From Microbacterium sediminis (lineage in GTDB: Bacteria > Actinomycetota > Actinomycetes > Actinomycetales > Microbacteriaceae), in NCBI RefSeq assembly GCF_004564075.1, contig NZ_CP038257.1, positions 1-64,000 of the forward strand: DNA of 64,000 bases, in the 5' to 3' direction. The notes below the pieces were generated by a model that had not been told where the DNA came from, made no database searches, and saw only the letters and a program-made list of their open reading frames with translations. This document shows, in pieces, positions 3,989 through 27,683 of this stretch. A program made the translations under genes and the position numbers. Numbering within the stretch: position 1 is the stretch's first letter; each line of letters opens with the position of its first letter.

Positions 3989-4067
3989 CACCCCGACGAC
4001 GCGAGCACCCGGCGAGCTGCGCTCGCCGCAGTTGTCGTGCCCCGGATGAGGGCCGGCTCCTCCCGAT

Positions 4068-4164
4068 TGTAGGTTCCCGCTCGAGATGGCGAGGAATGCC
4101 GCGATTCCACGGTAGTTGGCTGGGGTTTCGGGTTCAGGATTCCGCGAGTAGTGGCGGATTCTTA
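4068..4164 (+). repeat. Left terminal inverted repeat and internal repeat of the transposon
   Basis: Outermost TGTAGGTTCCCG (4068-4079) and ATGGCG (4086-4091). AGTGGCGGATTCTTA (4150-4164) repeats the subterminal motif of the right end. The stretch 3989-4305 has no credible gene; it holds this end and the CCGAT duplicate at 4063-4067. Confidence 0.7.
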
Positions 4165-4305
4165 CAAGAGCTCATGGCCGTCGCGGCGATCGGCTACACA
4201 CCATGCAGCGTGTCCGAACCGGCAGCGACGCGCTCTCCCCGGCCGCAGCAGCGCCCCCCGACGTGAACGGGAATACTCTCGTCAATCGGGGAGCTCCGGC
4301 AGGCG

Positions 4306-4647
4306 TCATCCTCCGCCGGGCAGATGCTCGAGGTGCCCGATGGCCTCCTCGAGCAGTTCGGAGACGTGGTCGTCGAAGAGCGAGTAGTGGATGTGCCGGC
4401 CGTCGCGCGTGCCAAGGACCAGGCTCAGATGCCGCAGCAGCCGCAAATGGTTCGATGTGGTCGTCTGTCCGATGTGCAGCTGTTCGCTGAGGTCGGTCAC
4501 GGTGCTCGGCTGAACACTCAGCGCGCTCAGAATGCGCAGCCGCACAGGTGACGCCAGTGCCTGCATGATCTCGGCGAGACGCTCAGCATCCGCTACGGAC
4601 AGGGTGCCTGCTTCCCGACGCGTCTCAGTACCGGCCATGCTCACCAT
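4306..4647 (-). CDS. ArsR/SmtB-family zinc/cobalt-sensing repressor, 113 aa
   Basis: A winged-helix metalloregulator. The core reads LASPVRLRILSAL ... TTTSNHLRLLRHLSLV, the ArsR recognition-helix pattern. Near the C-terminus the residues D-x-H-x10-H-x-x-H (DDHVSELLEEAIGHLEH) form the alpha-5 metal site of CzrA/SmtB-type Zn(II)/Co(II) sensors. The cysteine site of CadC-type sensors is absent. GGAGGGCACA precedes the ATG. It is divergent from the cation ATPase and should repress it until zinc or cobalt binds. Confidence 0.9.
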   Translation of the reverse strand: MVSMAGTETRREAGTLSVADAERLAEIMQALASPVRLRILSALSVQPSTVTDLSEQLHIGQTTTSNHLRLLRHLSLVLGTRDGRHIHYSLFDDHVSELLEEAIGHLEHLPGGG

Positions 4648-4683
4648 TGTGCCCTCCGATCACGACAATCATTCACAACTACA

Positions 4684-4707
4684 ATATATCATGATCTTGT
4701 GATGTAT
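4684..4707. promoter_or_regulatory. Candidate ArsR/SmtB operator between the divergent genes
   Basis: ATATATCA (4684-4691), eight bases, TGATGTAT (4700-4707): an 8-8-8 inverted repeat with one mismatch. It is the only AT-rich symmetry in the gap and is placed to block both divergent promoters. A -10-like TATCCT (4705-4710) overlaps it. Confidence 0.5.
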
Positions 4708-4716
4708 CCTGGTCGT

Positions 4717-6753
4717 ATGACTGCTTCTTCCCCGACGACTACCGCGCCCGCTGCGGAGACGCACGACCATTCCCACGGTTCGGCCCGGTGGGAGCTGTGG
4801 TTCGCGATCGCCGCGGGCGTGACCTACGCCGGCGGGATGATCGCCGAGTTCGCGTTGGGGCTGCCGATGGTCGGGTGGCCGTTGGTGTTCTTCCTCGCCA
4901 CCTACTTCTTCGGTGGGTTCTTCACGTTCCGCACCGCGATCGCCTCGACGATGCGAGGGAAGTTCGAGGTCGACTTCCTCATGCTGGTGGCCGCGATCGG
5001 CGCCGCCCTCATCGGCCGGTGGGCGGAAGGGGCGGTGCTGCTGTTCCTGTTCAGCCTCGGCCACGCGCTCGAGGAATACGCCCTCAGCCGTGCCAGCAAG
5101 TCCATCGAGTCCCTGGCCGAGCTCGCTCCCCGCAGCGCCCTGGTGCGCCGCGGCGGGGACGAGCCGGTGGAGGTGCCGGTGGAGGAGATCGTCGTCGGGG
5201 ACATCGTCGTCATCCGCCCGAACTCCCGCATTCCCTCAGACGGGTTCGTGATCTCCGGGGTGTCCGCGGTGGATCAGTCCGCGGTCACCGGGGAGTCGAT
5301 TCCGGTGGAGAAGGAGCCGGTGGCCGACCCGGAGCGGGCGATGCGCACCGTCGACACCCTGCCCGCCGCCAACCGTGTGTTCGCCGGCACCGTGAACGGG
5401 TCCGGCGTGCTCGAGGTCGAGGTCACCGCGACCTCCGCGGACTCGACGCTCAGCAAGGTCGTCGAGCTCGTCCGCTCCGCCGACCAGGCCGCCTCCCCCA
5501 CACAGCAGTTCATCGACCGGTTCCAGCGTTGGTACGTGCCCGCCGTGATCCTCGGGGTCGCCGTCACCCTCCTGATCTCCTGGCTCGCGTTCGCGCAACC
5601 GTTCCCCGACGCGTTCTACCTCGCCATGACCGTGCTCGTCGCCGCCAGCCCCTGCGCGCTCGCGATCGCAACCCCGGCCGCGGTGCTGGCAGGGGTCGCC
5701 CGTGCTGCGCGTGCCGGGGTGCTCGTCAAGGGCGGCGCCCCGCTCGAGACGCTCGGGCGGGTCAAGGCGATGGCGTTCGACAAGACCGGCACCCTGACCT
5801 GGGGTGCCCCCCGGGTGACGTCCGTCACCCCCGCCGCCGACGTGCCCGAGTCCGAGCTGATCCGCACTCTGGTCGCTGTCGAAGCGCTCAGCGATCACCC
5901 GCTGGCCGAGGCGATCGTCCGCGACCTCGAGCCCCGCGTCCCCCAGGCCGAGCGCCTCACCGCGACAGACCTGAACGCGGTCGTCGGGCGTGGCGTCACG
6001 GCGACGATCGACGGCGAGCGGGTCGACGTCGGCAACCTGCGCATGTTCGACGAGCAGCAACTCGCGCTGACCGGCACGCTCGCCGACGCGTACACGCAGG
6101 CGCGGGACTCCGGGCAGACGCTGATGATCATCCGCCGTGGCGACCGGTTCCTCGGCATCGTCGGCGTGATGGATGCGTCCCGCGCGGAGTCCGCCCAGGT
6201 GCTCAGCGCGCTCCGGGGCGCGAACGTGGGGCAGCTCGTGATGATCTCCGGCGACAACCAGCGCGTCGCCGACGCGGTCGGCCGGGAAGTCGGCGTCGAC
6301 ACCGCGATCGGCGAACTGCTCCCCGAGGACAAAGTCGCTCAGATCACCCGCCTCGCCGAAACCCACCGACCGATCGCGATGGTCGGCGACGGCGTCAACG
6401 ACGCCCCCGCGATGGCCCGCGCCGACGTCGGCATCGCGATGGGCGCCGCCGGCTCCACCGTCGCGTTGGAAACCTGCGACATCGCGCTGATGAGCGACGA
6501 CCTCGGCCGCGTCCCGTTCGCCGTGCGGCTCAGCCGCGCCACCAGCCGCATCATCCGGCAGAACCTCATCGCCAGCCTCGCGATCGTCGCGTTCCTCATC
6601 CTCGCCACCTTCCTCGGCCTGAACATCGGCGCGGTCGTACTCATCCACGAAGGCTCCACCCTGATCGTCGTCGGCAACGCACTCCGCCTGCTCAACTTCG
6701 AGCGCGGCAAAGAGCACCACGGCATCGACCACGAAGACAGGCCCACCGCTTGA
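4717..6753 (+). CDS. P1B-4-type heavy-metal efflux ATPase, 678 aa
   Basis: ATP-driven export of a soft divalent cation (Co, Zn, Cd or Fe) across the plasma membrane. The N-terminus is short and histidine-rich (HDHSHG) with no CxxC domain. SPCALAI lies in the transport helix, FDKTGTLT carries the phosphorylated Asp, SDHPLAEA is the HP motif, and GDGVNDAPA is the hinge. HEGST in the last membrane helix is the P1B-4 signature. The ATG at 4717 is preferred because the operator covers the earlier GTG/ATG at 4699-4702; a leaderless start six bases after TATCCT is possible. It is paired with the divergent ArsR repressor. Confidence 0.9.
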   Translation: MTASSPTTTAPAAETHDHSHGSARWELWFAIAAGVTYAGGMIAEFALGLPMVGWPLVFFLATYFFGGFFTFRTAIASTMRGKFEVDFLMLVAAIGAALIGRWAEGAVLLFLFSLGHALEEYALSRASKSIESLAELAPRSALVRRGGDEPVEVPVEEIVVGDIVVIRPNSRIPSDGFVISGVSAVDQSAVTGESIPVEKEPVADPERAMRTVDTLPAANRVFAGTVNGSGVLEVEVTATSADSTLSKVVELVRSADQAASPTQQFIDRFQRWYVPAVILGVAVTLLISWLAFAQPFPDAFYLAMTVLVAASPCALAIATPAAVLAGVARAARAGVLVKGGAPLETLGRVKAMAFDKTGTLTWGAPRVTSVTPAADVPESELIRTLVAVEALSDHPLAEAIVRDLEPRVPQAERLTATDLNAVVGRGVTATIDGERVDVGNLRMFDEQQLALTGTLADAYTQARDSGQTLMIIRRGDRFLGIVGVMDASRAESAQVLSALRGANVGQLVMISGDNQRVADAVGREVGVDTAIGELLPEDKVAQITRLAETHRPIAMVGDGVNDAPAMARADVGIAMGAAGSTVALETCDIALMSDDLGRVPFAVRLSRATSRIIRQNLIASLAIVAFLILATFLGLNIGAVVLIHEGSTLIVVGNALRLLNFERGKEHHGIDHEDRPTA

Positions 6754-6792
6754 GAGACTCAGCCGGCGCAGGCGACGGCCTCCCTTGCGCGG

Positions 6793-7188
6793 CTATGTGG
6801 CCCAGCAGGATTGCACGGTGCCGGTCGTTGCCTGCGCGACGGTCGGGATGGTCTCCACGAGTGCTCGTGTGATCTCCTCGGACGCGGGGTACTCGATGAC
6901 CCGCCAACCGACGATGCCGAAGTCCTCATCCAATGCCTGCACCGCGCATGCGAACGACGTCCCAGCGGGTGGCGTGGCTTGGAAGGATACGGTCACGGTG
7001 CGCGCATCGACCAGCTCGTATCCGGTCTCGTCGAATCCGACGTCGTCGAGCGAGTTCGAGACAGTCAGCCACGAAAGCCCGGCGACAGACAGGATTGCCG
7101 CCGTCGCGACGGTGACCCAGAACACGCGGCGGCGGATGGGCCGCGGTCCCCGACCGTAGCGGTCGGCGAGCTCCTCTTTCGTCGTCAC
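6793..7188 (-). CDS. DUF4307 membrane protein, 131 aa
   Basis: One membrane helix near residues 22-45 (VFWVTVATAAILSVAGLSWLTV) follows a basic N-terminus (ELADRYGRGPRPIRRR), with an extracytoplasmic beta-rich domain ending in a Cys (SCWAT). This is the typical DUF4307 layout. The GTG at 7188 is preferred because it avoids a 20-base overlap with the upstream gene and gives the family-like start TTKEELADRYG. It is the last gene of the long minus-strand cytochrome/copper operon. The function is unknown. Confidence 0.75.
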   Translation of the reverse strand: MTTKEELADRYGRGPRPIRRRVFWVTVATAAILSVAGLSWLTVSNSLDDVGFDETGYELVDARTVTVSFQATPPAGTSFACAVQALDEDFGIVGWRVIEYPASEEITRALVETIPTVAQATTGTVQSCWAT

Positions 7189-7198
7189 GTAGTGCGCC

Positions 7199-9178
7199 CT
7201 ATCTGCGGCTGCGAGCATCGCGGTCGGCGAGCTCGGTGAGGCGTGCGTTGTAGGCCTCGAGCTCGGCTTCGCCGGTGCGGTCGGCGTGCCGGTCTCGCCG
7301 CTTGGTCTCGCGGTCGTCGCTGCGACTCCACTGAATCGCGACCGTGATCGCGAGGATCAGGGTGGGGATCTCACCGATCGACCACGCGATACCGCCGCCG
7401 GTGTACTGATCCTCGAGCGGTGTGACACCCCAGGTGCGACCCATCGACCCGAACCAGTCGGCGACCATCAGCCCCGACTGCATCATGATGGAGATGCCGA
7501 AGAACGCGTGCATCGCCATCACACCGATGAGCAGCAGCAGCCTGCCGGCGTAGGGAAGCCGCCACGGCACCGGGTCGATGCCGATCAGGGAGAGCGCGAA
7601 CAGGTAGCCGGTGATGAGGAAGTGCGCGATCATCCACTGGTGGCCGAGGTGGTCGTACAGCGACCAGCGGAACAGGTCGGTGTAATAGAACACCCACAGT
7701 GAGCCGATGAACAGGGCGGCCGCGACGAACGGGTTCGTCAGGATGCGGGCGACGGGCGAATGCACCGCCCACAGGATCCACTCCCGCCCGCCGCGGGTGC
7801 CGTCGTCGCGTTTGCGGATCGCCCGGGCGGCGAGGGTCACCGGGGCGCCGGCGACCAGCAGCACCGGGATCGCCATCGTGAGCAGCATGTGCCCCACCAT
7901 GTGCATGCTGAACAGGTAGTCCTGGTAGACGTTGACGACGCCGCCGGTGACCCAGACCAGCAGCACCATGCCGGCGACCCACATGATCGTGCGATACACA
8001 GGCCACGCGTCGCCGCGCCGGCGCAGCCGCCACACCCCGGCGAGATAGAAGAAGATCGCGAACCCGGCGAGCACCGCCCACAACATGTCCACGTTCCACG
8101 CGGTGACCCACCGTTCGATCGTGAGCTCCGGGGGCAGCGGGGCACCGGTGAGGCGTTCTGCCGGCGAGGGGATCTCGGGAAGCGGGGCCGGGTTCGGTGG
8201 CGGAGTGCGGGCCAGCGCTGCGGCGGCGCCGCTGGCCACACCCATCAGTGCCAGCTCGAACGCGATGAGCATCCAGAAAGGGCGGGATGCCGCGTCGGAG
8301 CTGCGCATCCTGCCGATCAGGCGGGTGCGGTACCACGCCCCGAAGAGGCCGAGGCCGACGAGCGCGACGACCTTGATGCCCAAGATCGCGCCATAGGGCG
8401 AGAGCAGATCGGACCACTCCTGCAGGCCGATGGCGGCGCGCACCGTGCCGGACACGGCGACGAGCACGAACGCGGCCAGAGCGATGCTCGAGTAGCGGGC
8501 GGCGAGATCGGGGATGCGGCGACGGTCGAGGGCTGGACGGACGGCGATGAGCAGCAGGAGCCCGCCGAGCCACACCGCGGCGCCGATGATGTGCAGGATG
8601 AGCGCCATCATCGCCTCGTGGTGGAAGGCGTCATCGCCGGAGTGCCCCTGCGTGCCCATCGGCACGAGCGAGGCCACCGCCACCAGGGCGACCAGAAGCG
8701 TCCCGACCCAGGACCGCACGGCGAATGTCAGGACGGTGAGGGCGGCGCCGGCGACCGTCGTGATCAGCCATGTCCTGCCGACCTCGAGCTCGACGAGGAA
8801 CCGGCCGAGCTGGGCACCGAACTGGGGGCCTGCGTCGATGGCCGGGTTGAACACGCTGAGAAGCGTGAGGAACCCGGTCGCGCCCGCGGCCACGGTGAAC
8901 AGGGCTGCAGAGATCGACGCGGTATCGAGGGCGACGTCGAACTCGCGCTCACCGGCCCGCAGCGTGAACAAGGCGGTCACGAGCACACCGACCATGCCCG
9001 CGGCGGCGAGATTCACGACCAGTTTCGTGACCGGAAGCCCCCAGCGCACAACAGGGCCGGCGTCGCCGAGTGGGATCTGCGCAGCACCCCCACCGAACCA
9101 CAACGCCCCGACCAAGGCGATGAGTGCGACCCCGCCGAGGATCGCAGGCCCTGCGACCCGCAAGACGCGAGGAGTCAT
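7199..9178 (-). CDS. CopD-CtaG fusion membrane protein, 659 aa
   Basis: Residues 1-310 form a multi-helix CopD/YcnJ-like copper import domain (helices around 10-30, 45-70, 85-110 and onward). Residues about 340-620 are the caa3-type CtaG cytochrome oxidase assembly domain, with HMVGHMLLTMAIPVLLVAG, GHQWMIAHF and MAMHAFFGISIM supplying the conserved histidines. The C-terminal tail is charged and cytoplasmic. The protein probably moves copper and helps load it into cytochrome oxidase. The ATG overlaps the end of a 28-codon ORF. CopC, a partner protein, is encoded at 19525. Confidence 0.9.
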   Translation of the reverse strand: MTPRVLRVAGPAILGGVALIALVGALWFGGGAAQIPLGDAGPVVRWGLPVTKLVVNLAAAGMVGVLVTALFTLRAGEREFDVALDTASISAALFTVAAGATGFLTLLSVFNPAIDAGPQFGAQLGRFLVELEVGRTWLITTVAGAALTVLTFAVRSWVGTLLVALVAVASLVPMGTQGHSGDDAFHHEAMMALILHIIGAAVWLGGLLLLIAVRPALDRRRIPDLAARYSSIALAAFVLVAVSGTVRAAIGLQEWSDLLSPYGAILGIKVVALVGLGLFGAWYRTRLIGRMRSSDAASRPFWMLIAFELALMGVASGAAAALARTPPPNPAPLPEIPSPAERLTGAPLPPELTIERWVTAWNVDMLWAVLAGFAIFFYLAGVWRLRRRGDAWPVYRTIMWVAGMVLLVWVTGGVVNVYQDYLFSMHMVGHMLLTMAIPVLLVAGAPVTLAARAIRKRDDGTRGGREWILWAVHSPVARILTNPFVAAALFIGSLWVFYYTDLFRWSLYDHLGHQWMIAHFLITGYLFALSLIGIDPVPWRLPYAGRLLLLIGVMAMHAFFGISIMMQSGLMVADWFGSMGRTWGVTPLEDQYTGGGIAWSIGEIPTLILAITVAIQWSRSDDRETKRRDRHADRTGEAELEAYNARLTELADRDARSRR

Positions 9179-9261: not shown

Positions 9262-9311
9262 GTGCGTGCTTTCGGCTCGGGCAAGAGGGCGGGGCAGGGG
9301 TGCGGGGTCAT
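9258..9311 (-). CDS. Micro-ORF, 17 aa, after the ccsA-like gene
   Basis: The ATG overlaps the ccsA-like stop (ATGA) and the frame ends in an ATGA overlapping the next micro-ORF. The peptide is MTPHPCPALLPEPKART. Support is positional only. Confidence 0.28.
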   Translation of the reverse strand: MTPHPCPALLPEPKART

Positions 9312-10324
9312 GTGAGCCCGGAGTAGGAGTGGAGGCCCTGGAAGAACATGTTCACGATCGTGAAGTTGAACAGCACCGCGACGAACCCGATGATGGACAG
9401 CCAGGCGGAGCGGGTGCCGCGCCAGCCGCGGGTCGCGCGGGCGTGGATGTAGCCGGCGTAGAGCACCCAGATCACGAACGTCCACACCTCCTTGACATCG
9501 AAGCCCCAGTAGCGACCCCAGGAGTCGTTGGCCCAGATCGCGCCGGCGATCAGGGTGAACGTCCAGAACACGAACCCCACGATCGCGAACCGGTACGCGA
9601 GGGACTCGAGCACGTCGGCGGCGGGCAGAGTGCGCAGAAACCCAAGACCGTCGGCGCGGGCAGTGTCCGAGGATGCTCGGGTGCGGCGCTCCCGGCGGGC
9701 CTGCAGGAGCTGGGTGATGGAGATGCCGCAGGCGATCGCGAACAGGGCGGTGGCCAGGGACGCGACGAAGACGTGGATGACCAGCCACACGCTCTTGAGC
9801 GGATCCATCAGCGGAACGACCTCGACGTAGAACGAGACCGTCGCGCCACCCAGCAGCAGCACCACCATGCCGATCAGGAACGCACCGAGGAAGCGGAGGT
9901 CGTAGCGGCGCAGCACCAGCAGGTAGACGGCCACGATCAAGACCGTGCCGGTCAGCGCGAACTCGTACATGTTCGCCCACGGCACCCGCTCCGCGGCGAT
10001 GCCGCGCAGGATGGTGCCGGCCAGGTGGAACAGGAACGCGAGGACCGTCAGCGACGTCCCGATCCGCGCCCACAGCAGCCGTTGACGCTGCGCGGGCGGC
10101 GTGCGAACACTGTCCACCGACCCACTCTGGGCGTTGTCCGTCTGCTGGCCCGCCCGTGCGGTAGCGCCGGCCAGGACCGGCTCCCGCTGCGGGACGCTGG
10201 CGGGGACGGAGCGCCCGGCCAGGTCGATGGTGTACGCGATGAACGCGAGCAGGTAGGTGGCGATCGCCGTCCACACCAGCAGCAGTGAGATGCCGTCGAG
10301 GGAGAGCGCGTCGGTTCCGGTCAT
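9308..10324 (-). CDS. CcsA/CcsB-type haem handling protein for cytochrome c biogenesis, 338 aa
   Basis: System II cytochrome c maturation protein that works with ResB to present haem outside the membrane. About eight membrane helices are visible. The haem-binding WWD-type segment is WGRYWGFDVKEVWTF near residue 265, with WANMYEF, HVFVAS and HARATRGW supplying conserved His/Trp positions. The ATG at 10324 matches the typical short N-terminus and overlaps an upstream 25-codon ORF. ResB, CcdA and TlpA homologues are encoded upstream on the same strand. Confidence 0.9.
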   Translation of the reverse strand: MTGTDALSLDGISLLLVWTAIATYLLAFIAYTIDLAGRSVPASVPQREPVLAGATARAGQQTDNAQSGSVDSVRTPPAQRQRLLWARIGTSLTVLAFLFHLAGTILRGIAAERVPWANMYEFALTGTVLIVAVYLLVLRRYDLRFLGAFLIGMVVLLLGGATVSFYVEVVPLMDPLKSVWLVIHVFVASLATALFAIACGISITQLLQARRERRTRASSDTARADGLGFLRTLPAADVLESLAYRFAIVGFVFWTFTLIAGAIWANDSWGRYWGFDVKEVWTFVIWVLYAGYIHARATRGWRGTRSAWLSIIGFVAVLFNFTIVNMFFQGLHSYSGLT

Positions 10325-10398
10325 GGCAGGGTCGTCCTCTTCGTCGTTGCGGTCAGGGGGTGCCCGCGAGCGGGGTGGCGCGGTAGATCCGTGCACAT
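10321..10398 (-). CDS. Micro-ORF, 25 aa, between M23 peptidase and ccsA-like gene
   Basis: The ATG lies three bases after the M23 peptidase stop, and the TGA overlaps the ccsA-like ATG (ATGA). The peptide begins MCTDLPRHPARGHPL. It is the third gap-filling micro-ORF in this operon. There is no family match. Confidence 0.28.
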   Translation of the reverse strand: MCTDLPRHPARGHPLTATTKRTTLP

Positions 10399-10401
10399 CG
10401 G

Positions 10402-11280
10402 TCAGCCCGCGTTCGCTTCCAGCCAGGCCAGCGAGTCCACGGCGGTTCCGTCGAGGTAGACCTCGAAGTGCAGATGGTTCGCGGTGGAGCGTCCCGTGCT
10501 GCCGACGAGTCCGACCAGCTGCCCGGCCGTGACGGTCTGCCCGGCGGCGACCTGCCGGCTTCCGGTCTGCATGTGCGGGTACACCGTGCTCACCTGTTGC
10601 CCGTTCAGCACGGACTCCACCACCACGGTCACCCCGTATCCGCCGTAGCTGTCCTGCGAGATCCGCACGACGCCGTCGACGGACGCGTAGACGGGGGTTC
10701 CGCCGGCAGCGACCATGTCGGTGCCCATATGCGCGCCGCCTCGAGCACCGAAGCGGTCGGTCACGGTGAACGGACCGCCCACCGGCCACCGCACGGCTCC
10801 ACTGCCTTGGGGCACGATGCTGTAGTCGAAGGGCACCGAGGCGACTTGTGCGGAGGCGCGGGCACGTTCTGCGGCTGCTTCTGCCGCCTTCTTCTGGTCG
10901 ATCTCCGCCTGGGTGGTGGCCGAGTAGCTCTCCCGTGTGAGCTGCGTCCCAGTCGCGTCGGAGGCGACGATCAAGGATTGCGCGTCCTCGGACGCGACTT
11001 GCTGCAGTGTCGGGATCTCGAGGTCCGCCGGCTGCCAGGCGGCATACGCGGGGAGGGCGAAGGTGGCGATCAGGCCGGTGACCACCGTCAGGACCGCCAG
11101 GGAGCGCACTGGGCGCAGCGCGATTACCCGACCACGGGCGGACGTTTCTGCGGGCGGGCGCCGTGGGGGGCGGGTGGTGATGCTGGTGACTGGCGGGGTT
11201 GCGGCGCGGCGGAGGCTGCGGCGCGTGGGGGGCGTCTGGGGCTGGTCGCCGCCGCCGGGTGGGGTGGTCTGGTCAGTCAT
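10402..11280 (-). CDS. M23 (LytM-type) metallopeptidase, 292 aa
   Basis: Cell-wall endopeptidase or envelope activator. The cytoplasmic N-terminus is Pro/Arg-rich, with one membrane segment or signal near residues 58-80 (LAVLTVVTGLIATFALPAYA). An Ala/Glu coiled stretch (130-145) precedes the M23 fold from about 165. HMGTDM supplies the HxxxD ligands and HLHFEV the HxH pair, so the active site is complete. It lies beside a second M23 gene and cytochrome genes. Confidence 0.85.
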   Translation of the reverse strand: MTDQTTPPGGGDQPQTPPTRRSLRRAATPPVTSITTRPPRRPPAETSARGRVIALRPVRSLAVLTVVTGLIATFALPAYAAWQPADLEIPTLQQVASEDAQSLIVASDATGTQLTRESYSATTQAEIDQKKAAEAAAERARASAQVASVPFDYSIVPQGSGAVRWPVGGPFTVTDRFGARGGAHMGTDMVAAGGTPVYASVDGVVRISQDSYGGYGVTVVVESVLNGQQVSTVYPHMQTGSRQVAAGQTVTAGQLVGLVGSTGRSTANHLHFEVYLDGTAVDSLAWLEANAG

Positions 11281-11301
11281 GATGTCCTGGTTCGTTTCGG
11301 A

Positions 11302-19528: not shown

Positions 19529-20241
19529 GAGGGGTTCTCCTTCTGTTGCTGGTCGTCGGCGGTTCCACCATCCGCGGCGGCCGCGGCCGCGGCTGCTCGG
19601 TCGCGGCGACGACGCTCTCTGGCCACCATGAGCACGACCACCAGCGCGCCGCCCAGCACGATTACGCCACTCAGGACCGCAAGGACGGGGAGGAGTTCCC
19701 CACCTCCGGATGGCCCGTTGTGAACCTCTCCGGACGTATTGGCGGCAGATGTGGGAGACGGGTCGGGTGTCTGCTCCTCGGTCGCTTCGGGGGTAGGGGC
19801 GCTGGTGGGGACGGTGACCGCTTCGACGGTGTACTGGTACTCGTTGCTGATCGGGTGCCCGTCGCTGGACACGACCCGCCACCGCACCGTGTACACGCCC
19901 GCCTGACCAGGCGTCACCGCCTGGGTGACCGTGGTCCCGTCGATGACCGGATCCCCCGATGCGATGTTCTGCCCGTCCGGGGCGACCACCTCAATGATCA
20001 CGGCGCTGAAATCGGTGAGGATCTCGCCGCTGAACGTCAGCGAAATCTCCTCCGGGACCACGCTGACCGTGGATCCGGCTTCCGGGGAGGAGGAGACGAT
20101 CTCATCGTGCGCGGCTGCGGGCGCCGCGGTGGCGAACAGGAGCCCGGCGGCCAGCAGCAGCGTCGTCAGAGTGGACAGGAGGAGGATGCGTCTCCGTGAG
20201 CCGGATCGGTGCGGGTGTTCGTGGTCGGTGACGGTGGTCAA
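19525..20241 (-). CDS. CopC-domain copper-binding membrane-anchored protein, 238 aa
   Basis: A signal peptide (LLLSTLTTLLLAAGLLFATAAPAAAH) is followed by the CopC domain starting AHDEIVSSSPEAG, with SSDGHPISNEYQYTV near its end. These contain histidines typical of the Cu(II) site. A Thr/Pro/Glu-rich linker (about 150-180), a C-terminal membrane helix (about 190-212) and a basic tail follow. It should hand copper to the CopD domain encoded at 7199. Confidence 0.9.
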   Translation of the reverse strand: MTTVTDHEHPHRSGSRRRILLLSTLTTLLLAAGLLFATAAPAAAHDEIVSSSPEAGSTVSVVPEEISLTFSGEILTDFSAVIIEVVAPDGQNIASGDPVIDGTTVTQAVTPGQAGVYTVRWRVVSSDGHPISNEYQYTVEAVTVPTSAPTPEATEEQTPDPSPTSAANTSGEVHNGPSGGGELLPVLAVLSGVIVLGGALVVVLMVARERRRRDRAAAAAAAADGGTADDQQQKENPS

Positions 20242-20254
20242 GGCGGTGGTCCTT

Positions 20255-21274
20255 TCAGGGCCGGTTGATGATGTGCTGGGCGATCGTCGTCGCGTCTTTC
20301 CAGACCCCGGCGAGGGTGTCGGAGCCGCGGCCGCCGTACTGCGGCATCCCCGCCACGAACAGCCCGGGCAGGCCGGTCAGGGTGCGCCGCGGCCGGTCGA
20401 CGCGGGCCGGTTCCGGGAGCCAGTCGTCGCCAGGGGTGTAGCCGGTGGCGAGGATCACCGAGCGGGGGGATGCCTGCGTGCCATCGGCGAAGGTCACCCC
20501 GGCGCCGGCCGCGTCCTGCACCGCAGCTGCGATCGTGACCCCGACGCGGCGCAGCTGCTCATAGCTGTCGCCGAAGATCGGCTCGGGGCGACGCTCCCGC
20601 GAGAACAGCGGCACCCTCTCCCCCGCCGCGGCGGGATAGCTCATCGCGGGGCGATGCTGCCGCCGGGTTCGCACGGACAGCGTCACGGTGTGCGACGCGG
20701 ACAGTTCGCGGGCCAGCTGCACACCGCTGTTCCCGCCGCCCACGATGAGCACGTCGCCGACGGGGATCTGCTTCGGGTACAGGTACTCGCTGCTGTGCAG
20801 CACCACCCCGGGCATCGTCAGCAGAGACGCCCACTCCGGAATCCGCGGGTGCGCGGCCGCGCCCGTCGCGCAGATCACGTTGCGGGTCTGCACCTCCCCT
20901 GCCGTCGTCGACAGCAGCAGAGTCGAGCCGTTCCCGCGATGCTCCACCCCGGTCGCCTGGATGCCCCAGACCGTCTCCAGGCCCAGCCCGGCTTCCACGA
21001 AGGTGAGGTAGTCCGCCATCTCGTCCACTCGCGGATGCCGGCGCTGGTCACCCAGCAGCCGCCGCGGAGACAGCGCGCTATGCCGGGCGTCGCTGAGAAG
21101 CTCCATCGAATGCCACCGTGAGGACCAGGAACGCTGCCCCGTGCTGGCGGCGTCGATCACCACAAACTCGTGCTGCGGCCGCAGCCCTTCCGCGGCCAGA
21201 GCCGCGGCAACCGCGAGCCCAGACTGCCCGGCGCCGACGATGATCGCCCGCCGATGCGTCAAACCCGCCCGCAT
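20255..21274 (-). CDS. FAD-dependent flavoprotein monooxygenase/reductase-like, 339 aa
   Basis: Two dinucleotide-binding motifs are clear: IIVGAGQSGLAVA near the N-terminus (FAD) and LIVGGGNSGVQLA near residue 175 (NADPH). ILATGYTPGDDW is the late ATG motif. This is the single-component flavin monooxygenase/Trk-type fold. The ATG at 21274 is chosen because it overlaps the DsbA-like stop (TGATG). The substrate is unknown; the neighbourhood suggests envelope redox or metal stress. Confidence 0.85.
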   Translation of the reverse strand: MRAGLTHRRAIIVGAGQSGLAVAAALAAEGLRPQHEFVVIDAASTGQRSWSSRWHSMELLSDARHSALSPRRLLGDQRRHPRVDEMADYLTFVEAGLGLETVWGIQATGVEHRGNGSTLLLSTTAGEVQTRNVICATGAAAHPRIPEWASLLTMPGVVLHSSEYLYPKQIPVGDVLIVGGGNSGVQLARELSASHTVTLSVRTRRQHRPAMSYPAAAGERVPLFSRERRPEPIFGDSYEQLRRVGVTIAAAVQDAAGAGVTFADGTQASPRSVILATGYTPGDDWLPEPARVDRPRRTLTGLPGLFVAGMPQYGGRGSDTLAGVWKDATTIAQHIINRP

Positions 21275-21942
21275 CACCGGCCACCGTTCACCGCAGCCTG
21301 GATGGCGTTCTCGAGGTCGTCCCACTCCTGCAGCTCGAGCAGCTCACCGTCGAGGAAGAACGTCGGCGTGCTGCTCACCCCGAGCGCCTGGCCCTCCTCG
21401 AAATCCAGCTCCACCCGCTCCGCCGTAGCCGGGTCCGCCACGGCGGCGTCATAGGCGGCCATGTCCAGACCGATCTCCTCCGCGAAGCCACGGAACAGGT
21501 CGGCGCGAGACTCCTGCGCCTCACCCCACTCCGCCTGCGTCTCGAACAACCGGACATACATGTCCTCGAACCGGTCCTGCTGCGCGGCCGCTTCCGCCGC
21601 GACCGCCGCGTTCTTCGAATTGAAGTGACCGGGCAGCGGGAAGTAGCGGACCACATACGTGATCTCCCCAGCGAACTGCTCCCGCATATCCTCCACGATC
21701 GGGAAGAACGCGCCACACGCCTCGCACTCGAAGTCGAGGAACTCCACCAGGGTGACAGCGCCCTCCCCGCCGTCGTCGAGGACATGCGAGCTCTCCCGCA
21801 CCACCTGCGGGGATGCGTCACCGCCCCCAGATGAAGGTGGAGCGGACTGGCTCTGATTGACAAGGACATAGATCAACGCGGCGATCACCATCACCACCAC
21901 AACGGCAATGGTGACGAGCGTCGCCTTCACAGGGGTTTTCAT
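21274..21942 (-). CDS. DsbA-family thiol oxidoreductase, membrane-anchored, 222 aa
   Basis: One N-terminal membrane anchor (VTIAVVVVMVIAALIYVLV) and a thioredoxin-like DsbA/Thioredoxin_4 domain with active site CEAC (DFECEACGAFFP) and the cis-Pro region VSSTPTFFLDG. GGAG precedes the ATG at 21942. It probably introduces or shuffles disulphides outside the membrane, opposing the reducing CcdA-TlpA branch. A remnant of a close paralogue lies at 22532-22645. Confidence 0.88.
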   Translation of the reverse strand: MKTPVKATLVTIAVVVVMVIAALIYVLVNQSQSAPPSSGGGDASPQVVRESSHVLDDGGEGAVTLVEFLDFECEACGAFFPIVEDMREQFAGEITYVVRYFPLPGHFNSKNAAVAAEAAAQQDRFEDMYVRLFETQAEWGEAQESRADLFRGFAEEIGLDMAAYDAAVADPATAERVELDFEEGQALGVSSTPTFFLDGELLELQEWDDLENAIQAAVNGGR

Positions 21943-22033
21943 CGGGTACTCCAAACCAAGACACGGCACAGGACAGAACCCGGGCACGCAGCCCGGGACG
22001 AAGCGCCACCCGGAAAGGGTGGCGTGCCAAATG

Positions 22034-22701: not shown

Positions 22702-24807
22702 TCAGGCGTGGGCGGGTTCGGGCTGGCGAGCGGGCACCGTGGCGAGTTGCCGTAGCGCAGCGGGGCGACGGGCGGCGCGGACGCCATTGAGGATGACGAC
22801 GACCTCGGCGATCTCATGCACCAGCACGACGCCGGCGAGCCCGAGGATGCCGAACAGGGCGAGCGGGAACAGCGCGACGATGATCGCCAGAGCCAGACCG
22901 ATGTTGGCGGTCATGATGCGTCGGCCGCGGCGGGCGTGGGCGAGGGCGCCGGGGATGAGGCGGAGGTCGTGGCCGATGAAGGCGACGTCGGCGGACTCGA
23001 TCGCCGCCGCGGAGCCTTTCACACCCATCGCGATCCCGACCGTCGCCGTCGCCAGTGCCGGGGCGTCGTTGATGCCGTCGCCGACCATCGCGGTCGGTTG
23101 CTGCGTGACGAGCGCCTCAATCGCGGCGGCCTTGTCGGCGGGCAGCTGCTCGGCGCGAACGTCGGTTACGCCCGCCTCGGCGGCGATGGCGTGGGCGGTG
23201 CGGGTGTTGTCGCCGGTGAGCATGATGGTCTCAATGCCCTGCGACTGCAGCATCCGGACCGTCTCGGCCGACTCCGGGCGCAGCTCGTCCCGCACGCCGA
23301 TCAGGCCGGCGATCTGCCCGTCCGCCTCGACCACGACGACGGTCATGCCCTGCGCGGCAATCGCCTCCGCGTTCAACTGCTGGCCGGCGGGATGGAGCCA
23401 GCGGACATTGCCGACCCGGATCGCCCGGCCGTCGACGGTCCCGGTGATGCCATGCCCGGCCTCCTCGACCACCTCCGTTGCGGGGCTGGCGACGGGTGCG
23501 GCCGCGATGATGGCCGCGGCGAGGGGGTGGGTGCTGGTGGCCTCCACGGCGGCGGCCCAGGCGAGCAGGTCGTCGCGGGTGATACCGGGTGCGGGCTGGA
23601 CGTCGACGACGGTGGGCTCGTTGCGGGTGAGGGTGCCGGTCTTGTCGAGGGCGACGGCGCGGATCGTGCCGAGCTGCTCGAACGCTTCACCTGACTTGAT
23701 GACGACGCCGAACTTTGACGCCGCTCCGATCGCGCTGATCACCGTCACGGGCACCGCGATGGCCAGCGCGCACGGGGATGCCGCAACCAGGACGACGAGG
23801 GCGCGTTCGATCCAGGTCCACGGGTCGCCGACCAGCAGCCCGAACAGGGCGACCACGGCAGCGGCGATCAGGACGACGGGAACGAGCGGCTTCGCGATCC
23901 GGTCGGCGAGGCGTGCCCGGTTGCCCTTGCGGGCGTGGGCCTGCTCCACGAGGGCGACGATCTGGGTGAGGGAGTTGTCGCGGCCGTCCGCAGTTGCCTC
24001 GATCCGCAACGTCGCCGCCCCGTTGACCGAACCGGCGGCGACCGGATCGCCGGGGCCGACCTCGACCGGGATCGACTCGCCCGTGATCGCCGACGTGTCC
24101 AGGCTCGACCTACCCTCCACGACCACGCCGTCTGTGGCGATGCGATCGCCGGCACCGATGACGAGGATGTCCAGCTCACGCACGTCCGCGGCGGGGATCG
24201 TGACGTCGCTGGTTAGGCGGGAGACGCGGACAGTGTCGGGGATGAGGGACAGAAGGGCGCGCAAGCCTTCCTTGGCGCGGTCCATCGCCCGGTCTTCAAG
24301 CGCCTCGGCCAGGGAGAACAGGAACGCCAGGGTCGCGGCCTCGCCAACGTGGCCGAGCAGGACCGCGCCGATCGCGGCGATGGTCATCAGCAGCCCGACC
24401 CCGAGGCGACCGCGGATGAGGCGGCGGATCGCGCCGGGGACGAAGGTGTAGGCGCCGGCGAGCAGCGCCGCCCACTGCAGCACCAGCGCCGGGATGTGCA
24501 GACCAGTCCACTCGAACGTGTATCCGGCGAGGAGGAACAGCCCGGACAGCGCGGAGGGAAGCAACGCGAAGTCGCGCCACCAGGGCGGGCGGACCTCCGG
24601 CTCCTCGTCCGCCTCGGTGGGGGTGGTGGCGAGGTCGGGGCCGCAGCAGGCATCGCCCGCATCGTGCACCGCGCTTGGCGCCGCGGTCTTGGAGGAGGGT
24701 TCCGCGGCGCAGCAGGCGTCACCGGTCGAGAGCGGCCGGGACAGTTCGATGCGCCGGACCGTACCGGGCTTGCGCGGCTCGTTGGGGCCGCAACACTCTT
24801 CGCTCAC
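22702..24807 (-). CDS. CtpG-like P1B heavy-metal ATPase, 701 aa
   Basis: Metal-exporting P-type ATPase. The N-terminus has three CC pairs (EECCGP, DACCAA, DACCGP) instead of an HMA domain. SPCALAIAVP is the transport-helix CPx motif, LDKTGTLTRNEP the phosphorylation site, STHPLAAA the HP motif and GDGINDAPA the hinge. The last membrane helix has LVHEIAEVVVILNGVRA, as in mycobacterial CtpG. The GTG start overlaps the upstream stop (GTGA). It is the last gene of the cmtR operon; cadmium or lead export is the best guess. Confidence 0.88.
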   Translation of the reverse strand: MSEECCGPNEPRKPGTVRRIELSRPLSTGDACCAAEPSSKTAAPSAVHDAGDACCGPDLATTPTEADEEPEVRPPWWRDFALLPSALSGLFLLAGYTFEWTGLHIPALVLQWAALLAGAYTFVPGAIRRLIRGRLGVGLLMTIAAIGAVLLGHVGEAATLAFLFSLAEALEDRAMDRAKEGLRALLSLIPDTVRVSRLTSDVTIPAADVRELDILVIGAGDRIATDGVVVEGRSSLDTSAITGESIPVEVGPGDPVAAGSVNGAATLRIEATADGRDNSLTQIVALVEQAHARKGNRARLADRIAKPLVPVVLIAAAVVALFGLLVGDPWTWIERALVVLVAASPCALAIAVPVTVISAIGAASKFGVVIKSGEAFEQLGTIRAVALDKTGTLTRNEPTVVDVQPAPGITRDDLLAWAAAVEATSTHPLAAAIIAAAPVASPATEVVEEAGHGITGTVDGRAIRVGNVRWLHPAGQQLNAEAIAAQGMTVVVVEADGQIAGLIGVRDELRPESAETVRMLQSQGIETIMLTGDNTRTAHAIAAEAGVTDVRAEQLPADKAAAIEALVTQQPTAMVGDGINDAPALATATVGIAMGVKGSAAAIESADVAFIGHDLRLIPGALAHARRGRRIMTANIGLALAIIVALFPLALFGILGLAGVVLVHEIAEVVVILNGVRAARRPAALRQLATVPARQPEPAHA

Positions 24808-25079
24808 TGCACGCTCTCCTTCGTTGCGGGGGCGGGCGTCTGCTCTAGGAACGTGAGCGCGGCCAGTGCGTCATCGGTGCCGGTAACGGAAAGGCGCAGG
24901 TCGGGGTGGGTCGTGTCGATCGCCCAAGTCGCGAACGCGCAGCAGGACTGCTCGGTGCGGACCAGCTCCGTCAGCCGGGCGGTCGCGTCGTCGATCTTTG
25001 GGTAGTGGACGGTGATCTGGGCGGCCGTCCTGTCGATGTCGAGGAGGTAGTCGTCGTTGAATTCCTGCCACGCGGCTAG
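24804..25079 (-). pseudogene. 3' part of an Rv1993c-like gene cut by IS5-family insertion
   Basis: From LAAWQEFNDDYLLDIDRT to the C-terminus (about 90 codons) this matches the small protein that lies between cmtR and ctpG in mycobacteria. Removing the insertion and one CTAG copy rejoins it in frame with the 5' piece at 26053-26125. The Cys pair in TEQSCCAFATW could bind metal. The stop overlaps the ATPase start, so transcription from the IS or read-through is now needed to reach the ATPase. Confidence 0.75.
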
Positions 25080-25630
25080 GTCGTGTCTCCCAATAGTCGG
25101 ACCCAGGTGAGGATGGCGCAGAGGGTGACGCCGGCGCGGTACGTGATGGCGAGTTTGTCGAAGCGGGTCGCGATGCCGCGCCACTGCTTCGCGAGTGCGA
25201 AGAATCGCTCGATCACGTTGCGACCGCGGTAGGCGGTGGCGTCGAACCCGGGCGGGCGACCGCCGCGACTCCCGCGCCGTTTTCGTGCGATGATCTGGTC
25301 GCGCTTGTCGGGAATGACGGCCTTGACCTTGCGGCGGCGCAGCTCGCTGCGGATGACTCCGGTCGCGTAGGCACGGTCGGCGATCACGGCGTCGGGTCGG
25401 GTTCGTGGGCGACCCGGGCCAAGCCGGGGAACCTGGATCTCGCCGAGCACGTGGATGAGCATCGCTCCGTCGTTGCGCTGCCCGCCGGTCACGATCATCG
25501 CGAGCGGGCGGCCGTGCCCATCGACGGCCTGGTGGATCTTCGTGGTCAGACCGCCGCGGGAGCGGCCGATACCGTGACCGGGCGGTTCAATCTCGTGCCA
25601 GGGCAGATTCTTGTGATTCGATCCTGCCCC
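25076..25630 (-). CDS. IS5-family transposase, C-terminal frame (orfB)
   Basis: Expressed only by frameshift from orfB's partner orfA, probably at a run of five C/G at 25627-25631. It carries the DDE_Tnp_1 catalytic core: SRGGLTTKIHQAVDGHGRPL, VIADRAYAT and RRKVKAVIP, then NVIERFFALAKQWRGIATR with the late Glu. The product ends LLGDTT, and its TAG stop (25078-25076) lies in the CTAG target duplicate rather than in the element. Confidence 0.8.
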   Translation of the reverse strand, partial: GAGSNHKNLPWHEIEPPGHGIGRSRGGLTTKIHQAVDGHGRPLAMIVTGGQRNDGAMLIHVLGEIQVPRLGPGRPRTRPDAVIADRAYATGVIRSELRRRKVKAVIPDKRDQIIARKRRGSRGGRPPGFDATAYRGRNVIERFFALAKQWRGIATRFDKLAITYRAGVTLCAILTWVRLLGDTT

Positions 25631-26052
25631 CTGTGTCCTGCTCGGGGCGGGTGGTGTTCGTCGCATGCTGATGCGCACGCGCGATCGTCGCATCGATCGA
25701 CACCGCCCAGTCGATCTTCCCGGCCGCGTCGGCCTCGGCGAGCATCTGCGCCAGCACCCGATCCCACGTCCCGTCACCGGCGTAACGGCGATGCCGCTTC
25801 CACACCGTCTGCCACGGGCCGAACTGCTCGCGGGGCAAGTCACGCCACGGGATCCCGGTGCGGAACCGGTACGCGATGCCCTCCACAACCCGCCGGTCGT
25901 CACCGAACGGGTGACCACGCCGCCCGGCATTGGACGGCAACAGCGGAGCGATCCGCTTCCACTGCGCATCCGTGAACACCCGATATCGAGAACCCGTCGA
26001 CCTCACCCCACCAGACTGCCGCGAACCTCACGATGCATATGGGAGACACGCC
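25080..26052 (-). mobile_element. IS5-family insertion sequence, 973 bp
   Basis: The ends GTCGTGTCTCCC (25080) and GGCGTGTCTCCC (read inward from 26052) form 12-bp terminal repeats with one mismatch. CTAG is duplicated at 25076-25079 and 26053-26056, the YTAR-type target usual for IS427-like IS5 elements. Two overlapping transposase frames lie inside. It interrupts the gene between cmtR and ctpG and is intact, so insertion looks recent. Confidence 0.9.
25587..26006 (-). CDS. IS5-family transposase, N-terminal frame (orfA), 139 aa
   Basis: DUF4096-type N-terminal half of the transposase: FTDAQWKRIAPLLPSNAGRRGHPF, then YRFRTGIPWRDLPREQFGPWQTV, and DWAVSIDATIARAHQHA with the first catalytic Asp. 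The frame stops shortly after the G-run where orfB takes over. Confidence 0.85.
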   Translation of the reverse strand: MRSTGSRYRVFTDAQWKRIAPLLPSNAGRRGHPFGDDRRVVEGIAYRFRTGIPWRDLPREQFGPWQTVWKRHRRYAGDGTWDRVLAQMLAEADAAGKIDWAVSIDATIARAHQHATNTTRPEQDTGGRIESQESALARD

Positions 26053-26125
26053 CTAGCTGTGCAGCACCAGCGCCGGGCGTCAGCGTGCAGGCCACCGGCA
26101 GCAGGTCACGGTCGATGAGGCTCAT
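26053..26125 (-). pseudogene. 5' part of the Rv1993c-like gene
   Basis: The ATG at 26125 overlaps the cmtR stop (ATGA) and encodes 24 residues (DRDLLPVACTLTPGAGAAQL at the end) before the IS. Together with 24804-25079 it restores a protein of about 114 residues. Confidence 0.7.
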
Positions 26126-26457
26126 GCGCAGCACTCGCACTGATCGTCCATGCACGGGGCGCCCTCGTCGACGGCGACGACCGCCTCGAGCAGCTGTCGC
26201 AACCCCTGGGTCAGATGCGGGTCGGCGATCTCATACCGGGTGCGCCGACCTTCCGGTGTGGCGACGATCAACCCGCAGCCCCGCAGGCACGTCAGATGAT
26301 TCGAGACGTTCGTGCGGGTCAGCTCGAGATCTCGTGCCAGCTCAGCCGGGTAGCCGGGAGCGTCCAGCAGTGTGAGGAGGATCCGGGAACGGGTCGGGTC
26401 GGCCATCGCCCGACCCAGCCGGTTCATCACATCGAGGCGAGAAGTAAGAGTCAGCAC
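26122..26457 (-). CDS. cmtR: CmtR-type Cd/Pb-sensing repressor, 111 aa
   Basis: ArsR-family repressor closely resembling mycobacterial CmtR. LGRAMADPTRSRILLTLLDAPGYP starts the fold, and LTRTNVSNHLTCLRGCGLIV is the recognition helix containing both metal-site cysteines (CLRGC). A third Cys site is in the tail (APCMDDQCECCA). It lacks the alpha-5 His site of the regulator at 4306, so it should sense Cd(II)/Pb(II). The GTG at 26457 is chosen because TATAGT (26464-26469) ends six bases upstream, a leaderless arrangement matching the known CmtR N-terminus. Confidence 0.88.
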   Translation of the reverse strand: MLTLTSRLDVMNRLGRAMADPTRSRILLTLLDAPGYPAELARDLELTRTNVSNHLTCLRGCGLIVATPEGRRTRYEIADPHLTQGLRQLLEAVVAVDEGAPCMDDQCECCA

Positions 26458-26466
26458 AGGCTGACT
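26449..26466. promoter_or_regulatory. Candidate CmtR operator
   Basis: AGTCAG (26449-26454), six bases, CTGACT (26461-26466): a perfect inverted repeat overlapping the -10 (TATAGT on the minus strand) and the predicted GTG of cmtR. The position suits autorepression. Confidence 0.45.
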
Positions 26467-27436
26467 ATACATTCTCCGCTGTACTAATGCGAGGGCGGAT
26501 GAGTCGCGGTACCCCGGCGACCATGACCACCATTGCGACGAGCTCCACCAAGGTCTGAGTCACTACAACCAACGGCGTCAGAGCGAAAGATGCCGGCAGC
26601 GCGAGAGCGAGCGGGAGCACGACCAGCGAGTTGCGGGTGACCCCGCTGAACGTGGCCGCCCGGCGGCTGGGAACATCCAAGCGTGCCGCGCTCCCGAGGA
26701 GCGCACCGAGTGGTGCCACGATTAGGACGAACACGACGAACACGGGAACCGCGATTAGCAGCTGGCCGAGAGCGCTGCTCACGCCGAAGACCTGCGAGCC
26801 GATCACCACGGCGAGAGTCAGCATCATCAGCGGCACCATTGCCGCCAGCACCACGCCCTCGATCGCGCGGCCGGCACGGAACCGTTTCGCCAGCAGCTGC
26901 GTGGCGGCGGCGAGAACGAGCGGCAGCACGATCAACAACAGAAATGCCTCCACGAACGGATGCGGGTCGAACGCACCCACCACCTCGGCGCCGGCCATCA
27001 GCCACAGGTACACCGGCAGCAACACGATCTGCAGAAGCATCAGCAGGGGCGTGGCAGCAAGCAGCCGCGCACGTGCACCGCCAGCCAGGCCAGTGAACAC
27101 AATCACGTAATCCACACACGGCGTCAGCAGCACGAACAACACCCCAACGAGCACCGCCTGATCAGCCGCCACGGCGCGACTCAACCCGAACACGACCACC
27201 GGCACGACGACGAAGTTCAGGACGAGCACGACGCCCAGGAACCGCCAATCCGTGAAGGCCCGGCCGATCGCCGTGAACGGCACCCCCAGGAACGTCGCGT
27301 ACAGCAACAACCCGAGCACGGGATTGATCGCCGACTCGAGCGGATCCGCCACCGCCGGCACGAGTAGACCGACCACCGCACCCACGGCGATCGCTGCGAG
27401 GTAGAGCACTACCTGATGCCGCTCCCACCACTCCAC
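26465..27436 (-). CDS. BASS/ACR3-like membrane transporter, 323 aa
   Basis: About ten membrane helices in the bile acid:sodium symporter/arsenite-permease fold. LLTPCVDYVIVFTGLAGG near the middle carries a Cys at the position of the conserved ACR3 cysteine, and SGVTRNSLVVLPLALALP is the second crossover. The GTG at 27436 is a best estimate; longer starts exist but read into non-hydrophobic sequence. It overlaps the region that starts cmtR. It could export arsenite or another oxyanion; arsenate reductase is not present, so the substrate is open. Confidence 0.75.
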   Translation of the reverse strand: MEWWERHQVVLYLAAIAVGAVVGLLVPAVADPLESAINPVLGLLLYATFLGVPFTAIGRAFTDWRFLGVVLVLNFVVVPVVVFGLSRAVAADQAVLVGVLFVLLTPCVDYVIVFTGLAGGARARLLAATPLLMLLQIVLLPVYLWLMAGAEVVGAFDPHPFVEAFLLLIVLPLVLAAATQLLAKRFRAGRAIEGVVLAAMVPLMMLTLAVVIGSQVFGVSSALGQLLIAVPVFVVFVLIVAPLGALLGSAARLDVPSRRAATFSGVTRNSLVVLPLALALPASFALTPLVVVTQTLVELVAMVVMVAGVPRLIRPRISTAENV

Positions 27437-27619
27437 AGCTGTGCACACGAGCACAAGCCTGTCGAATGTAGCCGGTTCGCCCCTAATCGAGTGAGCGAGT
27501 AACCCTTCACCCCCAGCCAATGGCAGGACTGCTAGGTGCATGCCAACTACCCGCGGAATCTGTCATTTCGGATAGGAACCGACACGGCACTTACACGCAT
27601 CGTTCTCACCAATCTTTCG

Positions 27620-27683
27620 GATCCGCCACTTGTCCGCCACTTCATCTAAGAATCCGCCATCTTCGCCGAGAACCTACACCGAT
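27620..27683 (-). repeat. Right terminal inverted repeat of the transposon with three subterminal repeats
   Basis: Read inward from 27678 it gives TGTAGGTTCTCG and ATGGCGGATTCTTA. Three TCCGCCA motifs lie at 27622, 27633 and 27653, resembling repeated transposase-binding sites. CCGAT (27679-27683) is the target duplicate. The gap 27437-27764 holds this end and the dprA promoter but no gene. Confidence 0.7.

Follow-up and report, generated by a model that had tools for sequence, protein, structure and literature searches.

The window analysed here is the first 64 kb (64,000 nucleotides) of a 127,669-bp plasmid contig from Microbacterium sediminis, whose 2.92-Mb genome consists of two contigs. 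We interpret its segment from 4068 to 27678, a 23.6-kb block of metal-handling and cytochrome-maturation genes, as a non-autonomous cargo transposon, from an actinobacterial branch of Tn7-like elements, that is moved in trans and, in some genomes, is stacked with other elements (probability about 0.9). The block is bounded by inverted ends, TGTAGGTTCCCGCTCGAGATGGCG at 4068-4091 on the forward strand and TGTAGGTTCTCGGCGAAGATGGCG at 27655-27678 on the reverse strand, which match at 19 of 24 bases, and both ends are bordered by the 5-bp sequence CCGAT, the left copy of the target-site duplication occupying 4063-4067 and the right copy 27679-27683. The window was scanned for inverted 24-mers that begin with TG, match at 19 or more positions, lie at least 500 bp apart and have identical 5-bp flanks; the pair at 4068/27678 was the only one recovered, and no pair was recovered from 20 dinucleotide-preserving shuffles. 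These borders, flanks and matches agree exactly with those given in the first-pass annotation of this DNA, which had also described TGGCGGA motifs inside both ends. The motifs are indeed present, in asymmetric arrays. The left end (4068-4170, + strand) has the terminal sequence TGTAGGTTC, ATGGCGAG at offset 18, TTCCACG-like repeats at offsets 37 and 72, and TGGCGGA at offset 84, and the right end (27592-27678, - strand) has the same terminal TGTAGGTTC followed by close-set TGGCGGA copies at offsets 19, 39, and 50. The arrays of relatives are similar. These repeats are putative transposase-binding sites, as in Tn7-like elements; the ends of Tn7 itself carry three binding sites on the left and four on the right (PMC8649781), and a 5-bp duplication is characteristic of Tn7 and its relatives (PMC11406308).

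The same element was found in nine Microbacterium genomes: that of the window (G000), M. aurantiacum (G199), the metagenome-assembled genome (MAG) SCN18 (G200), M. ginsengisoli (G202), TNHR37B (G203), PS02070 (G204), and G432, G503, and G505. A scan of species genomes with the right-end pattern returned 54 stretches, 50 of them titled actinobacterial, compared with approximately 7.5 expected by uniform base counting, and seven stretches were identical to the window right end over at least 105 bases. In 366 genomes of the same genus, the right end was present at no more than three mismatches in 14, among which five metal-element genomes recur as G428, G642, G471, G584, and G685; five others are G561 (one contig edge; the same MAG as G201) and the genomes G512, G562, G596, and G756 (= G211), which carry an autonomous element described below. 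Both 60-bp ends are identical to those of the window in all eight other copies; the M. ginsengisoli copy is divided between two contigs, and the SCN18 copy has its right end at a contig edge. Alignments with the eight genomes end at, or no more than 7 bp outside, 4068 and 27678, and the DNA beyond the borders differs among the copies except for G204 and G505, which have common flanks and a common deletion of window positions 10444-12508; we thus count eight insertion contexts for the nine genomes. The G432, G503, and G505 copies contain about 1.3-1.5 kb of extra DNA. The earlier proposal that the block moves as one unit is therefore supported, its ends coinciding with the limits of the cargo in eight other genomes, and similarity to the window running on smoothly past 4068 or 27678, the observation that would have spoken against that proposal, was seen in none of them.

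The cargo is far more conserved than its hosts. Over a common 7.9-kb block the copies are 98.8-100% identical, whereas dnaB is 82-85% identical among five hosts; between G200 and G202, 7,877 of 7,877 cargo bases are identical and dnaB is 82% identical. Transfer is thus recent relative to the divergence of the hosts. Wider searches gave little. A 1.58-kb probe used against 398 genomes of the family found, among the matches listed, one full copy (that of the window) and ACR3/ArsR homologues at 65-79%; an end-pattern search of 199 family genomes gave three other single-mismatch matches, taken as chance; and a plasmid search gave no match with 301 bp around the right end and 12 weak short matches with the right end alone. 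Elsewhere in the M. sediminis genome the end pattern has matches at three mismatches only, two in all and both on the chromosome, compared with one for the reversed control.

The affiliation of the element comes from the genes that stand beside the same type of end in other genomes. In Mycobacterium (locus L017) and in Microbacterium G211, G512, G562, and G596, such ends are followed by genes for TnsA, TnsB, TnsC, and TniQ (truncated at the edge of the contig in G211); the 20 kb read beside the end in Agromyces (G215) yielded TnsA and TnsB only. The Mycobacterium order is end, TnsA-like open reading frame (ORF), TnsB, TnsC (TniB family), and an 866-residue TniQ; its TnsA-like ORF has no Pfam match of its own and is approximately 43% identical to the Microbacterium TnsA, of which the G512 representative matches PF08722 at 27.0 bits against a cut-off of 26.5. 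A PDB search with TnsA gave no significant match, and that with TnsC reached only E = 0.005, to VchTnsC. A profile built from four TnsB proteins had seven PDB matches at E 0.01, all to TnsB or TnsA-TnsB proteins, with E values from 1e-27 to 1e-9 (Tn7 TnsB). Residues D265, D369, and E405 are invariant in all four proteins and probably form the DDE triad. The right end of the window element is identical at 77 of 87 ungapped positions to that of the autonomous element in G512, G562, and G596, and its left end is identical at 73-79 of 100 ungapped positions to four of the five other left ends compared, two of which stand to the left of tns genes in M. ginsengisoli; the fifth, the outer left end of G512, agrees at 50 of 100 positions ungapped and at 79% with gaps. 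The autonomous element also has 5-bp duplications, GGCGT and GAACC in G512 and G596, which border a 36-kb unit that holds a second left end inside; the corresponding borders in G562 lie 37.5 kb apart. Its first 9 kb are identical in G562 and G596 and match at 8995 of 9000 positions in G211. These comparisons place the window ends in a Tn7-like family of Actinobacteria, the autonomous members of which encode TnsA, TnsB, TnsC, and TniQ.

The first-pass annotation had left the affiliation as Mu-, IS21-, Tn7-, or Tn5053-type and had suggested looking for the same ends beside a DDE transposase. TnsB beside this type of end supplies that transposase, and of the four options a Tn7-like element with TnsA is the one that has support. 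Ends of an IS21, Mu, or Tn5053/Tn402-type element would have TG-CA termini, several internal repeats, and 5-bp duplications in common with those observed; the end-adjacent genes, however, encode TnsA, TnsB, TnsC, and a long TniQ, and all seven structural matches of the TnsB profile are to TnsB or TnsA-TnsB, so we regard such an origin as extremely improbable. Tn5053/Tn402 consists of TniA, TniB, TniQ, and TniR without TnsA, and to our knowledge a TnsA-like endonuclease is no part of IS21 or Tn5053. Membership in IS21 was rejected because the genes next to the ends are those for TnsA, TnsB, TnsC, and TniQ and not IstA/IstB, and membership in Tn5053/Tn402 because of the TnsA-like endonuclease in the cognate G512 element. 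A composite transposon was likewise rejected: no insertion sequence (IS) lies at 4068 or 27678, the other copies end at the same bases, and the single IS5-family copy is internal.

Several further loci bear this type of end. At L024, L037, and L212 (the last in G512), genes for a SMODS cyclase and a ThiF/E1 protein lie just inside a right end of the same type; the L024 contig is labelled Croceicoccus and is perhaps a mis-binned actinobacterial contig. The G512 element carries a CBASS-type cassette (cyclase, E2, E1, JAB, and NucC) in place of metal cargo. Contig C108 of G210 has two TnsA-TnsB-TnsC-TniQ sets within 20 kb, the first TniQ being partly matched and near the contig end, and probably represents two adjacent Tn7-like elements.

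The window element itself is predicted not to be autonomous. No tnsB, tnsC, or tniQ/tnsD was found among the 26 cargo ORFs scanned, and queries with TnsA, TnsB, TnsC, and TniQ gave no match on the whole plasmid contig. The claim of the earlier annotation that no matching transposase lies inside is correct as far as tns genes are concerned, and needs to be amended for an unrelated IS5-family transposase that is present. Whole genomes were searched for G000, G199, G200, G202, G203, and G204. In G000, G199, and G203 there was no match to TniQ or to the Mycobacterium TnsB query, and the Microbacterium TnsB query gave, in G000, six weak 67-residue matches in 347-residue ORFs, which we took to be IS proteins. 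TniQ was above the cut-off in G202 and G204, with one weak match in G200. For G432 and G503, no tns genes lie within the 40 kb read. TnsABC-TniQ genes adjoin the metal element in G204 and G505. A Mutator-type (IS256-like) transposase gene lies at window positions 34670-35905, on the same plasmid and outside the element. Could the element have arisen by a recent deletion, in which an autonomous Tn7-like transposon lost its tns genes in place and stayed immobile thereafter? Its ends do resemble those of autonomous elements, and its own genome is without tns genes that we could find. The same tns-less structure, however, occurs in eight contexts in nine genomes and has its own duplication three times, so the element has moved since losing tns genes, or never had them; we consider such a derivative very unlikely.

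The three duplications that border the unit alone are CCGAT in the window, GGGTG in G200 (a MAG in which the two junctions were read on separate contigs), and CGATG in G505; in G204 the right copy of CGATG differs by one base. Since this tns-less unit is bordered at three sites, that of the window among them, by a 5-bp duplication of its own, we strongly infer mobilisation in trans, as had been suggested from the window sequence. In the mechanism that we propose, the element would retain both cis-acting ends, the left with spread and the right with close-set TnsB-type sites; TnsA and TnsB from an autonomous relative in the same cell would excise it; and TnsC with TniQ or another selector would insert it next to dnaB, next to or within resident elements of like kind, or elsewhere, as on this plasmid. 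The plasmid may then have brought the element into a host without tns genes, a route made possible by its conjugation-type genes (TcpC, AAA_10, FtsK-type, and T2SSE).

The positions of the ends point to dnaB as the attachment gene of the family. In all nine contigs that hold dnaB together with family ends or tns genes, a TGTAGGTTC end lies 1-33 bp after the dnaB stop codon. The right end of the metal element itself begins 1 bp past the stop in G199, and the right end of the autonomous element follows dnaB in G596, G562, and G211. The end at 1 bp in G562 is a further end, the named element starting 123 bp from dnaB, and the end at 1 bp in G204 is of another type, the metal element lying 94 bp further on. 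The literature searched, which most subscription papers lie outside, described no Tn7-like attachment at dnaB in the portions available, where DnaB appeared once as a control; the attachment genes named for Tn7-like elements are glmS, tRNA genes, parE, and comM (PMC11406308, PMC10293859). A different end type, with TGTAGG and TGTCC repeats recognised by eye, occurs after dnaB or beside the metal element (G199:C1:155648-159636, G204:C11:659902-659995, and G432:C1 beyond 528792) and looks like that of a second Tn7-like family sharing the site. The window copy lies on a plasmid beside a dprA-like gene (70% DNA identity to annotated dprA; no Pfam or NCBIfam match), several other copies are also away from dnaB, and the dnaB of the window genome (85% at the protein level) has no such end in the approximately 500 bp after it.

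A number of observations weigh against our interpretation. No 5-bp duplication is present in four of the eight contexts (G199, G202, G203, and G432), and the autonomous element of G562 is also without one. The G503 flanks agree (AGAGT) only when an outer right end 65 bp beyond the element is used. TnsB is present in three of the six copy-bearing genomes searched whole (G200, G202, and G204), and some copies may thus have travelled with a neighbour. The right end at dnaB of a tns-bearing element on contig C66 of M. ginsengisoli is only 45/87 identical to that of the window, so more than one pairing of TnsB and end exists rather than a single clean set. That a TnsB of this family would act on the window ends is suggested by the similarity of the ends only, and movement itself was not observed. 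The nine dnaB contigs were not a blind sample, having been found by way of ends or tns genes, and dnaB is found in 9 of the 54 right-end stretches and in none of the other 45, many ends being elsewhere or on the far side; in seven of those nine, no more than 50 bp separate the end from the point where the dnaB alignment stops (including Mycobacterium L017 and L028 and the actinobacterial L040). An empty plasmid site with a single CCGAT, which the first-pass annotation had proposed to look for, was not recovered: no listed match in the 366 genomes spans the joined window flanks, the best other listed match covering the dprA side only, at 69%. Plasmid searches with the window flanks gave mostly single-gene matches (best rows 65-73%, with 1 of 32 and 2 of 113 records at 80-90%), and the plasmid with the closest dprA (L173) has weak, distant matches to only two left-flank genes, its gene order giving no empty site.

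The missing duplications also bear on whether the block spread by homologous recombination, or within larger elements or islands, and not through its own ends. Recombination could have moved some of the copies; those in G203 and G432 abut the left end of another element, with 6 and 5 bp between them, and those in G204 and G505 adjoin TnsABC-TniQ genes. Against such spread stand the identical termini of all eight other copies, the duplications in the window, G200, and G505, and the G503 copy, which interrupts a frame: when the G503 flanks are joined, a single open frame runs through the junction, which matches of 69-75% span in 3 of 27 other genomes. We consider spread of this kind very unlikely and, preferring transposition through the element's own ends, read the missing duplications as the result of stacking in arrays. 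A lone right end follows the metal element in G202. Right-end-like stretches of about 65-123 bp that have no element of their own also occur, either between elements or at dnaB (G202:C66:15516-15622, G503:C1:1923776-1923840, and just after dnaB in G562). The second element, which we call B and whose left end adjoins the metal element on its right-end side in G203 and G432, may be another tns-less module; it was located at G432:C1:503765, G203:C3:1081926, G200:C10:149, and G202:C68:69832, and in G203 a multicopper oxidase gene lies just inside its left end.

The cargo was annotated by scanning the 26 ORFs with Pfam and NCBIfam models. Apart from the IS, its genes are assigned to metal efflux and copper handling, to the maturation of cytochrome c by system II, to the processing of lipoproteins, and to thiol-disulfide exchange. 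From the left, an ArsR-family regulator (4306-4647, -; PF01022) is followed by a heavy-metal P-type ATPase (4699-6753, +; TIGR01525, TIGR01512), a DUF4307 protein (6793-7218, -), a CopD-CtaG fusion protein (7199-9178, -; PF05425 and PF09678), and a CcsA/CcsB-type system II cytochrome c assembly protein (9308-10789, -; PF01578, and TIGR03144 above cut-off). Two M23 peptidases come next (10402-11280, -, a listed ORF that overlaps its neighbour, and 11302-12708, -), then apolipoprotein N-acyltransferase (Lnt; 12705-14324, -), a second CtaG-family protein (14328-15584, -; PF09678, 229 bits), ResB of the system II maturation pathway (15266-16954, -; PF05140, 440 bits), a CcdA/DsbD-type membrane protein (16935-18035, -; PF02683), a ResA-like thioredoxin-fold protein (17699-18472, -), and lipoprotein signal peptidase (LspA; 18627-19175, -; PF01252). 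The remainder encodes CopC (19525-20241, -; PF04234), an FAD/NAD(P)-dependent oxidoreductase that is ArsO-like below cut-off (20255-21325, -), a DsbA-like protein (21274-21987, -; PF13462/PF01323), a second heavy-metal P-type ATPase (22702-24807, -), and, beyond the IS, a second ArsR-family regulator (26122-26472, -) and an SBF/ACR3-like transporter (26465-27541, -; PF01758, with the ACR3 model TIGR00832 at 36.5 bits, below cut-off). The cargo list of the first-pass annotation is thereby borne out for the two CtaG proteins, CopC, the CopD domain, ResB, CcsA, the CcdA/DsbD-type and ResA-like proteins, LspA, Lnt, and DsbA; both ATPases pass the cut-off of the cadmium-type model but not that of the copper model. 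A relative of part of the cargo is found on a Corynebacterium efficiens plasmid, and diverged partial cargo (72-81% in the aligned pieces) is found in Microbacterium G201:C32 and G206:C5 (L031, L074, and L075), contigs that also bear family left ends.

The secondary IS5-family insertion (25080-26052, -; 973 bp) has its transposase in two frames (PF01609 and PF13340) and is flanked by CTAG at 25076-25079 and 26053-26056. This CTAG is uninterrupted in seven of the eight other copies, and the IS is a later, unrelated arrival and not the machinery of the transposon; its transposase was rejected as the mover of the block because those seven copies are without it. In the G432 copy, a different IS5-family element of about 926 bp (G432:C1:505404-506328), 74-76% identical over the two best stretches, occupies the same CTAG. 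The choice of one site by two different IS5-family elements in two transposon copies is a small case of IS target preference.

The element resembles Tn7 and Tn7-like transposons, whose hallmarks and target selectors are given in PMC10293859 and PMC11406308, in its 5-bp duplication, in the arrays at both ends, in its metal cargo (common in Tn7-like transposons; PMC8649781), and perhaps in a preference of its family for a site beside a conserved chromosomal gene. It differs in that no Tns protein was found in it, the family gene looks like dnaB, and the window copy is on a plasmid. With the autonomous element of G512, G562, G596, and G211 it has in common the right end, the left-end family, and 5-bp duplications (G512 and G596); the G512-type element, in contrast, carries genes for TnsA, TnsB, TnsC, and TniQ and, in G512, the defence cassette, whereas the window element carries metal cargo. 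In host phylum and gene content the family is compatible with the Actinobacteria-dominated clade 2 of Tn7-like TnsB proteins, which according to Benler et al. 2021 (PMC8649781) has no experimentally characterised member; the likeness is one of description. In that survey, up to 125 kb around tnsB was scanned and borders were found only there, so that elements in genomes without tnsB would escape; it reports that tnsE is confined to clades 1 and 3, although 20% of the transposons are plasmid-borne. Tn7706 of Rhodococcus erythropolis (PMC12915292) is reported as multicopy, on plasmids, with tnsA, tnsB, tniQ, and tniB and with an IS insertion in one plasmid. By this description it is likewise actinobacterial, Tn7-like, plasmid-borne, and IS-hit, and it has its own transposition genes, whereas none were found in the window element. 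Among the titles and abstract openings searched, which leave most subscription papers outside, no trans-moved or nonautonomous Tn7-like cargo was described for Actinobacteria.

Mixed end pairs occur, namely the 36-kb unit of G512 and G596 with its inner second left end and the metal element of G503 with a foreign right end. We give an even chance to a broader view, in which Actinobacteria harbour a dnaB-centred, two-part Tn7-like system of autonomous TnsABC-TniQ elements and stackable, transposase-free cargo modules that would be moved in trans and could use any compatible pair of left and right ends. The surveys in PMC8649781 and PMC10293859 start from genes for transposition proteins, so that a large element would escape them if its genome had none. 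The present element suggests that trans-moved Tn7-like cargo forms a class in Actinobacteria that has gone uncounted, and the evidence points to dnaB as an attachment gene. It carries metal efflux genes together with all parts of the system II cytochrome c maturation set, and its spread is recent; if the broader view is true, approximately 20 metal and cytochrome-maturation genes can spread among these bacteria as an independent, exchangeable module.

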